Part shown: piece after piece, positions 365 through 57,993 of the stretch | Numbering within the stretch: the first letter of the stretch is position 1 | Layout of the letters: each line of letters opens with the position of its first letter | Source: Methanosarcina vacuolata Z-761 | Lineage (GTDB): Archaea; Halobacteriota; Methanosarcinia; Methanosarcinales; Methanosarcinaceae | Assembly (NCBI RefSeq): GCF_000969905.1 | Contig: NZ_CP009520.1 | Location: 2,170,001 to 2,234,000 of the forward strand | Reading direction: 5' to 3' | Length of the DNA stretch: 64,000 nucleotides | The notes under the pieces: model-generated | The model's database searches: none | Told to the model about the DNA's origin: nothing | The model's input: only the letters and a program-made list of their open reading frames with translations | Made by a program: the position numbers and the translations under genes

Positions 365-1969
365 TTATATCTTAGTTTGCGGAGGAACCAAAATTTCAGG
401 TGGCAGAAAGATTGAGACAATTATACCAAGTATCGCAAAAACCCCCAGTCCCCAGAGGGAAGCTTTTATCCCGTGGATGCGGACGATTTCGTTTACTCTC
501 AAGACCTTCTGTGAAAGGTCAGGAGGAGCATCTTTCAGGATAGCTGTCAGTTCTTCATTGCTCAAAAAGCGGGCGTGATCCTCTACTGCCGATATCACGG
601 AAGGCTTGAGCTCCTCTGGAATAGCGGTACTGTCATTAATGAGGTTAGTGGCTCCTCCTACCAGGCCCACAATAACTATGGAACCCATCAGGGCAGTTCC
701 AATAGCCATGCCCAAATTCTGGGAAGTGCTCATAAGAGCAGCTGTCTCGCTTGTTCTTTCAGAAACTACCTGAGAGAGGACGAGGTTCATTATCTGCGAT
801 GCTATAACTCCTGCGCCTATGCCTATTAAGGCAAAACCGGTCAGCAGGGCAAACCCTTTGACCTCCACATTAATGGTTGCAATAGCCAGTAACAGCCCTG
901 CTATAAGTACGAGTAGCCCTACCTGAATAATGCGCTTTGGGGCTATGCGGGAAGATAACCGAGATGCTGTGAGCGAAGCAATTAAAAGTGGCATGGAAAG
1001 GGGAAGGTAGAGAAAGCCTGTCTGCATAGCATTGAGGCCCAGGGCTATCTGGAGGAAAAGAGCCATGCTGAACAGGAAACCTCCTATAAGAACGGTCTGA
1101 ACCATCTGTACAAAAATACCTGAAGTGACCCTGCGGTCCCTGAGCACGTCAAGTCTTACGAGTGGCATTCTACCCAGATTAATGACATGAAGTTCCCATA
1201 GGGCAAAACCCACCAGGATAATGCCTGCTGCAATAAATACAGGGGTAGGAGAAAGGCCGAATGGAGAAATTTCAATTCCTCCTATTGAGAAGGGATGACG
1301 CGCCTCCCACCAGCCATAGGTCCCTGCCAGTAATATCCCAAAGACAATAAGCCCCATTCCCAGCGCAGAAATTATAGAGCCGACTATATCCAGCCTGGGT
1401 TTTTCTTCAGTCTCAAGGGGTGCATCCAGAATATACCGGCTTAACAGTAAGATTATGAGCACGATAACTACTTCCCCGCCAAAGGCAAGCCTCCAGGTGT
1501 ACTCAGTTGTCAGCCAGCCTCCTATAATGGGCCCGAGTGCAATCGCGCTTGCAACGATTCCCCCTAATATGCCGTAAGCAAGTGCACGGTCCTTTCCGCT
1601 GTAGTTTGAGGTCACAAGCGTCTGAATGGCAGGCATTACAAGGGTAGCTCCTAGCCCTTCAAGGATTGACCAGCCTATAAACAGCACGGCCATTGTCGGG
1701 CTGATTGCAGTCAGGAAAGAACCGGTACCGTAGATGATCAGTCCTGTCCTCAATGCCCTTTTTCGGCCAATAATATCTCCAAGCTTTCCTCCGGTGATCA
1801 TAAGTGATGCCATTACAAGAGAATAGAGTGTAATGGCAGCCTGGACAGTGGCAACGTTAGTGTCAGAATCTTTGATGAGTGTAGAAATAGAAACATTCAT
1901 TATCGTCGTATCAATAACAAGCACAAACATTGCAAGCACGAGAGCAGCAAGTACAGTCTTTCTTTCTAT
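365..1969 (-). CDS. MFS multidrug exporter of the DHA2 (EmrB/QacA) type, apparent ATA start
   Basis: A membrane protein with about 14 hydrophobic segments. TM1 contains the DHA2 signature VLVIDTTIMNVS and the first cytoplasmic loop contains GGKLGDIIGRKRAL, the MFS motif A. The family exports drugs or other hydrophobic compounds by proton antiport. The first conventional start is a GTG at 1939, but it lies inside TM1. The frame continues upstream as ERKTVLAALVLAM, which looks like the missing start of TM1. The frame closes at a TGA about 60 nt further up with no ATG, GTG or TTG between. GGAGG at 1977-1981 lies exactly 7 nt before an ATA at 1967-1969, so I place the start there (534 aa). Alternatives are a strain-specific start-codon mutation or a shorter GTG product. 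Family call is firm, start is inferred. Confidence 0.88.
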   Translation of the reverse strand: MERKTVLAALVLAMFVLVIDTTIMNVSISTLIKDSDTNVATVQAAITLYSLVMASLMITGGKLGDIIGRKRALRTGLIIYGTGSFLTAISPTMAVLFIGWSILEGLGATLVMPAIQTLVTSNYSGKDRALAYGILGGIVASAIALGPIIGGWLTTEYTWRLAFGGEVVIVLIILLLSRYILDAPLETEEKPRLDIVGSIISALGMGLIVFGILLAGTYGWWEARHPFSIGGIEISPFGLSPTPVFIAAGIILVGFALWELHVINLGRMPLVRLDVLRDRRVTSGIFVQMVQTVLIGGFLFSMALFLQIALGLNAMQTGFLYLPLSMPLLIASLTASRLSSRIAPKRIIQVGLLVLIAGLLLAIATINVEVKGFALLTGFALIGIGAGVIASQIMNLVLSQVVSERTSETAALMSTSQNLGMAIGTALMGSIVIVGLVGGATNLINDSTAIPEELKPSVISAVEDHARFLSNEELTAILKDAPPDLSQKVLRVNEIVRIHGIKASLWGLGVFAILGIIVSIFLPPEILVPPQTKI

Positions 1970-1981
1970 GTCAACGCCTCC
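1967..1981 (-). promoter_or_regulatory. Shine-Dalgarno site followed by ATA instead of ATG
   Basis: On the reverse strand GGAGG, a 7-nt spacer (CGTTGAC) and ATA follow one another. The spacing is ideal for initiation, and the downstream frame is the exporter frame. This decides the start proposed for the exporter. Confidence 0.55.
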
Positions 1982-2012
1982 TGTAGTAAAATATAAAGGC
2001 GTAATCTCTGCG

Positions 2013-13203: not shown

Positions 13204-13217
13204 GAGGTTTTATTCTG
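13204..13217 (+). promoter_or_regulatory. Shine-Dalgarno site followed by CTG instead of ATG
   Basis: GAGG (13204-13207), a 7-nt spacer TTTTATT and CTG at 13215-13217. No ATG, GTG or TTG lies between this site and the TTG at 13263. Confidence 0.5.
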
Positions 13218-30192: not shown

Positions 30193-31593
30193 ACGGAATT
30201 ATCGGGTGTTAATGTACTTGAGATCCTTACAGGAATAGATCAGTTAATCTGGGGACCACCACTTCTGGTTTTACTTGTAGGGACCGGGATTTTCCTTACC
30301 TTGAAACTCGGAATGATTCAGGTCTTCAGGCTGCCTCTTGCTCTCAGGTATGTGCTTAATTCCAGAAAAGCCGAAACTGGAGTACAGGGAGACGTTTCGA
30401 GTTTTGGAGCTCTCACCACTGCACTGTCCTCAACTATCGGGACAGGGAATATAGTTGGGGTTGCAACTGCAATAAAAATGGGAGGTCCAGGCGCTCTTTT
30501 CTGGATGCTTCTTGCGGGCTTTTTTGGGATGGCAACCATGTATTCCGAGTCCCTGCTTGCAGTCAAATACAGGGTCGTGGACGCAAAAGGGCAGATGTCA
30601 GGAGGGCCTATGTATTATATCAAAAATGGGCTTGGGCAGATGAAGTACAGCCGCGTTCTTGCAGACGCTTTTGCTTTTTTTGGGATGAATGTAGCCCTAT
30701 TTGGAATAGGAACATTTCCGCAGGTGAATGCCATTGTCGATTCGGCAAGGATTGCCTTTAATATCCCTGAAAACCTGAGCGCTTTTGTAATAAGCCTGCT
30801 TGTGGCGTTTGTAACGCTTGGCGGGATCAGGAGGATTGCAGCAGTAGCCCAGCTGCTTGTGCCTTTCATGGCAATAAGTTATGTATCGAGCTGCCTGATA
30901 ATTCTTGGGTTAAACCTTGAGAAAATTCCTGAAATCCTTTCTTTGATAATAAACACTGCATTCACAGGAACTGCTGCACGGGGAGGTTTTCTTGGTGCAG
31001 GGGTGATGCTTGCAGTAAGAATGGGAATTGCGCGTGGAATATTCTCAAACGAGTCTGGCCTTGGAAGTGCTCCAATAGCCGCTGCGGCTGCAAAGGTAAA
31101 AGAACCGGCCAGGCAGGGGCTTATTTCCATGACAGGAACTTTCTTTGACACCATCATTATCTGTTTCATGACCGGAATCGTCCTGATCGCGACGGACTCC
31201 TGGACAGGCAACCTTGCAGGTGCCTACATGACAAGCTACGCTTTTTCCACCATACTTGCAGAGGCCGGAAATTACATCGTAACAGTCGGGCTCATTTTGT
31301 TCGCCTTTACAACTATTCTGGGTTGGAATTACTATGGTGAACGATGTGCGGAATATCTCTTTGGCGTAAAAGGAATTCTCCCTTACAAAATAATTTACAT
31401 CCTGATTGTTGCCTCAGGTGCTTTCCTGACTATAGATATTATCTGGGTACTTGCCGATATAGTAAATGGGCTCATGGCTATCCCAAACCTTATTGCCCTG
31501 CTGGCTCTGCGAAAAGTTGTTACGGCCGAGACCAGGCAGTATTTTGAGAAACTTAAGTCTGAAGCCTCGAGTTCGAGAGAGGTATCAAAATAA
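30193..31593 (+). CDS. Sodium:alanine/glycine symporter (AGCS), apparent non-ATG start
   Basis: A sodium-coupled amino-acid carrier with about 10 helices. FGALTTALSSTIGTGNIVGVATAI and FSNESGLGSAPIAAAAAKVKEPARQGL are the AGCS signatures for sodium and alanine/glycine binding. The first ordinary start is TTG at 30301, after the first helix. The frame extends upstream as SGVNVLEILTGIDQLIWGPPLLVLLVGTG, which is the normal AGCS N-terminus (xxLIWGPPLLxLLxGTG). No ATG, GTG or TTG lies in that part; ACG at 30193, nine bases after GGGGG, would give MELSGVNV. I use that position (466 aa) as a best guess; CTG at 30184 is the alternative. Family is firm. Confidence 0.88.
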   Translation, partial: TELSGVNVLEILTGIDQLIWGPPLLVLLVGTGIFLTLKLGMIQVFRLPLALRYVLNSRKAETGVQGDVSSFGALTTALSSTIGTGNIVGVATAIKMGGPGALFWMLLAGFFGMATMYSESLLAVKYRVVDAKGQMSGGPMYYIKNGLGQMKYSRVLADAFAFFGMNVALFGIGTFPQVNAIVDSARIAFNIPENLSAFVISLLVAFVTLGGIRRIAAVAQLLVPFMAISYVSSCLIILGLNLEKIPEILSLIINTAFTGTAARGGFLGAGVMLAVRMGIARGIFSNESGLGSAPIAAAAAKVKEPARQGLISMTGTFFDTIIICFMTGIVLIATDSWTGNLAGAYMTSYAFSTILAEAGNYIVTVGLILFAFTTILGWNYYGERCAEYLFGVKGILPYKIIYILIVASGAFLTIDIIWVLADIVNGLMAIPNLIALLALRKVVTAETRQYFEKLKSEASSSREVSK

Positions 31594-57265: not shown

Positions 57266-57733
57266 TTAGCTTGCTTTTTCTTCAGACTTGCTTTTTTCTC
57301 TTACAACCATAACAGGGACCTTTGAGTGCCGTACAACATTTACGGCAACGCTGCCTAAAAGCAACCGATCAATTCCTGTTCTGCCAAGAGTACCCATGAC
57401 AATAATATCCATTTTCTCTTCTTCGGCGTATCGGATCAGCTCAGTGGCAGGGTGACCTTCAAGCAGGACACACTTGACATTGACATTTTCCATTTCTCCT
57501 ATTCCTTTTACATAATTAACGGCTTTGCATCCGTCTTTTCTCAAAGCCTCATGCATTCTCTCCCAGTTAAAATCCACAGCCATCGAAGAAAAATACTCCG
57601 TTGATATTACATAAACTGCGTAAACCGTCCCTCCACTTAACCTGGCAAGTTCTATTCCTCTATTGGCAGCAAGCCTTGAGCAAACCGAGCCGTCAGTTGC
57701 AATCATTATTTTGTTAAAAGTAACGTTCTCTAT
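57266..57733 (-). CDS. Universal stress protein (UspA family), apparent ATA start
   Basis: A 155-aa UspA protein. KIMIATDGSVCSRLAANRGIELAR is the conserved first strand and helix, and IIVMGTLGRTGIDRLLLGSVAVNVVRHSKVPVMVV contains the ATP-binding GTxGRxGxxxxxxGS. The first ATG (57706) starts directly at MIATDGS, leaving no N-terminal strand residues. The frame extends upstream as ENVTFNKIM, a usual Usp start, to an ATA at 57731-57733. GGGGG at 57741-57745 lies exactly 7 nt before it. No ATG, GTG or TTG is in that extension. I place the start at ATA; starting at ATG 57706 would remove the first half of strand one. Confidence 0.88.
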   Translation of the reverse strand: MENVTFNKIMIATDGSVCSRLAANRGIELARLSGGTVYAVYVISTEYFSSMAVDFNWERMHEALRKDGCKAVNYVKGIGEMENVNVKCVLLEGHPATELIRYAEEEKMDIIVMGTLGRTGIDRLLLGSVAVNVVRHSKVPVMVVREKSKSEEKAS

Positions 57734-57745
57734 GCAAAATCCCCC
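57731..57745 (-). promoter_or_regulatory. Shine-Dalgarno site followed by ATA instead of ATG
   Basis: On the reverse strand GGGGG, a 7-nt spacer ATTTTGC and ATA follow one another, the same geometry as at 1967-1981. Confidence 0.55.
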
Positions 57746-57993
57746 AGTTATTCATTCACTTGCAAGAAATATAATAGCATCGGGTTTCATGAAGTGAGGC
57801 CAGGAAATCCATTCGAAAATTTTTGATCTTTCATAAAAGATATAGTGGTGGAAGAATATTTTAAAATTATGAAATTTTCTACAAGAAATACAAGGCAATG
57901 CAAACCCCCAACTAATGCAAAGGAATCTGTTATTAATTTGTCGAATTTATCGATGGATTAACCAGATCTCTATTATTTTTGCTCTTCTTCTGT

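Follow-up and report, generated by a model that had tools for sequence, protein, structure and literature searches.

Putative AUA start of a universal stress protein gene

In the window, i.e. the whole stretch of 64,000 nucleotides of Methanosarcina vacuolata Z-761 that was analysed, the gene encoding a universal stress protein (Usp) very probably begins at AUA rather than AUG, as judged from its sequence and from the start codons of its orthologs. Initiation at this codon, through a Shine-Dalgarno (SD) sequence and the initiator Met-tRNA, is in our view highly likely to be one case of a Methanosarcina-wide and, at least in part, family-wide use of near-cognate start codons, which would concern about 3-4% of genes.

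57266..57733, minus strand: Usp gene including the N-terminal extension, 155 aa (Pfam PF00582, 117.4 bits, profile positions 2-141)
57731..57733, minus strand: putative ATA start codon, aligned with the ATG/GTG starts of orthologs
57704..57706, minus strand: internal ATG, the sole canonical start near the 5' end of the gene, no SD
57741..57745, minus strand: SD sequence GGGGG, 7 nt to ATA, pairing with the anti-SD CCUCC
57767..57774, minus strand: TATA-box-like element TTATATTT, identified from sequence and kept in several orthologs

The start region reads TAACTGGGGGATTTTGCATAGAGAACGTTACTTTTAACAAAATAATGATTGCAACTGACGGC on the minus strand. The arrangement described in an earlier note on this DNA, GGGGG followed by 7 nt (ATTTTGC) and ATA, proved correct in coordinates, strand and frame. 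From the ATA, which is one base away from AUG, the frame runs ATA GAG AAC GTT ACT TTT AAC AAA ATA ATG, the last codon being the ATG at 57706. An in-frame TGA lies 7 codons 5' of the ATA, and no ATG, GTG or TTG occurs between this stop codon and ATG 57706. The SD energy at the ATA was -9.1 kcal/mol at a spacing of 7 nt, the GGGGG being weaker than the SDs of the best near-cognate cases; for ATG 57706, the best SD pairing amounted to just -4.4 kcal/mol and was 20 nt off.

Membership of the UspA family was supported by a Pfam match of 117.4 bits, above the curated cut-off of 24 bits for PF00582. The score was 117 bits with profile entry at position 2 when translation was taken from the ATA, and 110 bits with entry at position 6 when taken from ATG 57706, in line with the earlier proposal that the extension restores the first strand of UspA. 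The position of the TATA-like element suggests a transcript start about 10-14 nt 5' of the ATA, so that the SD would probably lie within the mRNA; unlike this, the TATA-like element of the exporter gene described below would leave nearly no leader.

Distribution of the Usp start codons across Methanosarcina

Usp orthologs from other Methanosarcina genomes were aligned at the conserved IATDGS motif. Most species had ATG at the codon aligned with the ATA, and G003, G009 and G019 had GTG; this codon always stood nine codons 5' of the internal Met of KIMIATDGS, with no indels, and an SD-like stretch was present at equal distance in most orthologs. This internal Met is a conserved residue, even where orthologs start at the upstream ATG or GTG. 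The ATA was present in eight species with an intact gene (G000, which is the present genome, G028, G029, G002, G021, G015, G007, G018), and a ninth case was found on a partial contig of UBA11020. The SD at this position was retained throughout the ATA clade. A maximum-likelihood tree with 25 rows placed the seven ATA genes included in a single group (100/98 support), which gives ATA one origin. The Usp gene probably lost its ATG when G changed to A in the common ancestor of this clade, in which AUA would then have been retained.

These data also bear on a strain-specific mutation or a sequencing error changing ATG to ATA. Such an origin has a precedent in the ACG of porB, seen in this genome alone among the orthologs checked, but for Usp it is refuted by the conservation of the ATA across eight separate species genomes with an intact gene, besides the partial contig, and its probability is close to nil.

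Within the ATA clade, the body of the gene showed 33 synonymous versus 21 nonsynonymous codon differences per pair, and this excess of synonymous differences indicates purifying selection and therefore a functional gene. The extension, only 8 codons long, showed 0 synonymous and 1.8 nonsynonymous codon differences per pair, a count too small to be interpreted. Three genomes (G002, G018 and UBA11020) carried an in-frame ATG 7 codons 5' of the ATA, with the SD just about 3 nt from it, and therefore have an alternative Usp start; the homologous ATG of G000 is out of frame. In G022, the ortholog (L020) is a pseudogene with a one-base deletion, hence a frameshift, after the ATA and two internal stop codons, which means that the gene is dispensable somewhere.

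Translation could instead proceed from the internal ATG 57706, the ATA and its GGGGG being a decayed former start preserved by short divergence. ATG is a stronger codon than ATA, the eight intervening codons lack synonymous changes in the ATA clade, and Pfam recognises the Usp domain even in the protein lacking the extension. However, ATG 57706 has no SD, whereas the SD at the ATA position was kept across the clade; a start at the internal ATG would also cut the first beta strand, and the in-frame, spacing-specific excess of near-cognate codons found genome-wide and absent in E. coli (see below) argues against it as well. Overall, a start at ATG 57706 appears unlikely.

Other putative near-cognate starts in the window

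Four near-cognate codons of the window, including the ATA of Usp, aligned with the start codons of orthologs, in agreement with the earlier suggestion of several near-cognate starts in this segment. Its CTG and ACG cases were probably those at 13215 and 30193.

365-1969, minus strand: MFS exporter gene (GGAGG, 7 nt, ATA)
1967..1969, minus strand: putative ATA start codon of the exporter, same codon aligned across species
1977..1982, minus strand: SD sequence AGGAGG of the exporter, 7 nt to ATA, -13.0 kcal/mol
13215..13217, plus strand: putative CTG start codon of an MBL/beta-CASP (RNase J-like) protein, CTG in 6/6 Methanosarcina
30193..30195, plus strand: putative ACG start codon of a sodium symporter-like protein, placed by ortholog alignment

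The exporter shared the geometry of the Usp start, as had been claimed, with GGAGG, 7 nt and ATA at 1969-1967. Eight species had ATA at its aligned start codon; G014 had ATC, G003 had GTA and five others (G007, G019, G022, G025, G030) had GTG. The GTA of the G003 ortholog (L046) is two changes away from ATG and has a good SD in front. No canonical start was found ahead of the RNase J-like coding region at 13215, and another genus has ATG at the start position of this gene. The symporter start codon was ACG in G000 and G002, and ATG in G003, G014, G021 and G025.

The earlier note had considered the equal spacing at two ATA codons 56 kb apart as hard to attribute to chance. The non-random character of these sites was upheld by the ortholog alignments, the ATA clade and the genome-wide excess; the equal spacing itself is weak evidence, as SDs in this organism ordinarily lie 7 nt from the start codon.

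Genome-wide scan for near-cognate codons behind SD sequences

Two blocks of the M. vacuolata genome, 2.0 Mb in total, were scanned, with genes called by codon usage. Among the 1187 scored genes, 313 lacked an ATG, GTG or TTG close to the 5' end whose SD reached -6 kcal/mol or lower. For these 313 genes, all codons preceded at 6-8 nt by an SD of -8.5 kcal/mol or lower were tallied by codon type, and the expected counts were taken from the other (non-near-cognate) codons and compared by Fisher test. ATA, ATC, ATT, CTG and ACG together were observed 50 times versus about 15.5 expected (p = 2e-10), and ATA alone 21 times versus 3.8. In the same 2.0 Mb, AAG behind a strong SD was not enriched and AGG was weakly so (4 versus 1.5).

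The control for frame and spacing covered spacings of 0-18 nt in three frames. The near-cognate excess was limited to the frame of the gene and to spacings of 7, 8 and 9 nt (ratios 4.9, 3.7 and 2.3, respectively), with ratios of about 1 in the other frames and spacings; the SD spacing of canonical ATG starts peaked at 7 and 8 nt. At 7-9 nt, a bin picked after the spacing scan and coinciding with the peak of canonical ATG starts, 58 near-cognate sites were observed versus 15.0 expected (p = 3e-14), i.e. an excess of about 36 per 1000 scored genes. Two separate 500-kb parts agreed on this excess, whose confinement to one frame and spacing indicates that SD-near-cognate sites are used as a class. 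The genome-wide excess that the earlier note had suggested looking for was thus found on 2.0 Mb, and the note understated the case, as the phenomenon is genome-wide and family-wide.

As ATA is a common isoleucine codon in this genome (2.1% of codons), G-rich stretches may precede it by chance, and a single SD-ATA combination is not rare. This explanation was refuted by the controls for frame, spacing and codon, with an excess over non-near-cognate codons at the p value given above, absent in other frames and spacings, and by the alignment of the Usp ATA with ortholog start codons; its probability is very small. An artefact of the scan as the general cause of the excess was ruled out with 500 kb of E. 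coli K-12, where the identical pipeline gave 1 site versus 3.2 expected, hence no excess. The contrast beyond Methanosarcinaceae is drawn from E. coli and from single orthologs.

Conservation of putative near-cognate starts in other genes

Twelve strong-looking candidates, chosen by eye from the scan list, were aligned in five other Methanosarcina, and most of those checked retained a non-AUG start in the other species. KsgA had CTG in 12/12 genomes, six further species included, and ATT was found in 6/6 Methanosarcina both for an MtbC-like corrinoid protein and for the small subunit of AcnX (aconitase-X), as was ATA for a phosphoesterase. Across the Methanosarcina compared, a PhoU-like protein had ATC or ATT, ManC had ATA or ATT, and a NifS-like protein retained ATA. 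A DUF255 protein had CTG but TTG in one species; for DUF790, five species had CTG and one had ATG.

Hps had ATA or ATC in the initial Methanosarcina set; six further species confirmed a near-cognate start, and a near-cognate codon (ATA, ATC or ATT) was found family-wide. An in-frame stop lies 3 codons 5' of its ATA, no canonical codon occurs in the next 13 codons, and no canonical start precedes its conserved first strand; given this upstream stop and these 13 codons, there is hardly scope for a different start. In the other genera of Methanosarcinaceae, Hps always had ATC or ATT, the MtbC-like protein ATT, ACG or ATG, and the small AcnX subunit ATT or ATG. Outside the family, Hps had ATA in one family (f5), and the other cases were mostly canonical or unclear. 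The N-termini predicted from the near-cognate starts are (M)VRSLLK for KsgA, (M)SKEELLQELADAIISCK for MtbC and (M)VPIIQVALDLLELDR for Hps.

In manC (G000:C2 909189, minus strand; L171, L173, L176), an ATG is embedded in the SD (GGAGATGA); some species have it in frame, but in G003 and G025 it is out of frame and ATT alone fits, and the ATA or ATT 3' of it is retained whichever frame this ATG has. In G032, from another genus of the family, two MtbC-like paralogs (L245, L251) both have ACG at the start position behind a strong SD.

Proposed mechanism and comparison with known systems

In the proposed mechanism, the 30S subunit would be placed at the Usp gene by pairing of GGGGG with the anti-SD of the 16S rRNA, and the initiator Met-tRNA(CAU) would be used at AUA with the third-position mismatch tolerated, the predicted product from ATA 57733 being Met-ENVTFNKIMIATDGS... 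More generally, AUA, AUU, AUC, CUG and ACG would act as regular starts given a good SD 7-9 nt upstream. From the positions of these codons, their alignment with canonical starts, their conservation, SDs and spacing, and the genome-wide excess, we infer initiation itself at near-cognates, Met insertion, the use of the initiator tRNA and the efficiency of the process. As a guess, such a start may lower the translation rate and hence have a dosage-setting role.

A relaxed start rule in Methanosarcinaceae, with AUA, AUU, AUC, CUG and ACG ordinary in a few percent of genes, kept by selection across genera and start annotation of the family systematically wrong, is likely; as part of that reading, it likely extends to conserved metabolic and translation genes. 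Such a rule may be connected with an archaeal initiation complex of lower discrimination, or with weak starts being used for regulation. Neither a duplication of aIF1 nor a non-AUG start of this factor accounts for it, aIF1 being unremarkable, single-copy and ATG-started in 7/7 genomes checked.

Archaea possess aIF1/aIF1A in place of IF3. Near-cognate starts might be a controlled device, acting through an initiation-fidelity factor (like IF3 in bacteria) and keeping stress and repair proteins at a low or regulated dosage, which would add to the proposed mechanism rather than replace it. The long retention of near-cognates beside strong SDs, as in KsgA with CTG in all genomes compared, suggests more than mere tolerance, but aIF1 is single-copy with an ATG start and the affected genes are diverse, catabolic enzymes among them, which makes such a device possible but rather doubtful.

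In bacteria, the starts of infC in E. coli and Streptomyces (AUU/AUC) and of sigR in Streptomyces (GTC) are repressed by IF3 (PMC5472188). They resemble Usp in having a start other than AUG, GUG or UUG behind an SD and an annotation shifted to a nearby canonical codon; however, they are single bacterial genes under IF3 control, whereas tens of archaeal genes with no known regulator are concerned in Methanosarcina. In Sulfolobus, aIF1 disfavours non-canonical starts (PMC6237735, PMC8211752). Archaeal start codons are given as AUG, GUG and UUG in a review, which also reports about 15% of leaderless mRNAs in M. mazei (PMC7531240).

Within the same genus, Ribo-seq of M. mazei indicated a CTG start at 5% of unannotated small ORFs, according to the accessible part of the report (PMC11456600). 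That part deals with small ORFs and ATG, GTG, TTG and CTG starts and describes no ATA, ATT, ATC or ACG starts, whereas the present cases involve these four codons in conserved full-size genes. The main text of a report on M. mazei N-termini, Table 2 aside, makes no mention of non-canonical starts (PMC4350412). Belinky et al. followed 61,358 AUG starts in 36 prokaryote genome groups; the codon had switched to CUG in 2 cases and to AUU in 1, and SDs were stronger at non-AUG starts (PMC5622118). Codons of this kind are involved here as well, but the switches in that survey were rare and derived from annotated starts, whereas such codons are common and conserved in Methanosarcina. Non-AUG starts of chloroplasts are likewise conserved over long evolution, but they belong to an organelle and the starts tested were AUG, UUG, GUG and CUG (PMC9845219). 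The literature searched, with most subscription journals outside it, contained no earlier report of AUA, ATT, ACG or unusual Methanosarcina starts.

Dozens of genes in this genome seem to start at codons outside the set of textbooks and gene finders. Gene finders for archaea usually accept AUG, GUG and UUG alone. If a few percent of the genes of the family are indeed concerned, dozens of N-termini per genome would be corrected, the absence or truncation of enzymes (Hps, KsgA, MtbC, RNase J-like) would be explained, and a natural system would be available in which to study how faithfully start codons are chosen when initiation is of the archaeal/eukaryotic type.

Additional near-cognate candidates

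The gene encoding the pyruvate ferredoxin oxidoreductase beta subunit, porB (G000:C2 2670579, plus strand; L129-L168), has ACG with an intact SD, and ATG in the other Methanosarcina orthologs checked. Its ACG appears to have replaced ATG recently, in a central enzyme, and, being confined to G000, indicates that some isolated cases may stem from recent mutation or from error. A second aRF1-like release factor (G000:C2 1118252, minus strand) has ACG in G000, G002 and G029 and ATG or GTG elsewhere; an ATG-started aRF1 paralog is present in other Methanosarcina genomes checked. Two more Usp genes (G000:C2 2301376 and 467880, both on the plus strand) seemingly have ACG and ATA starts, respectively, with strong SDs.
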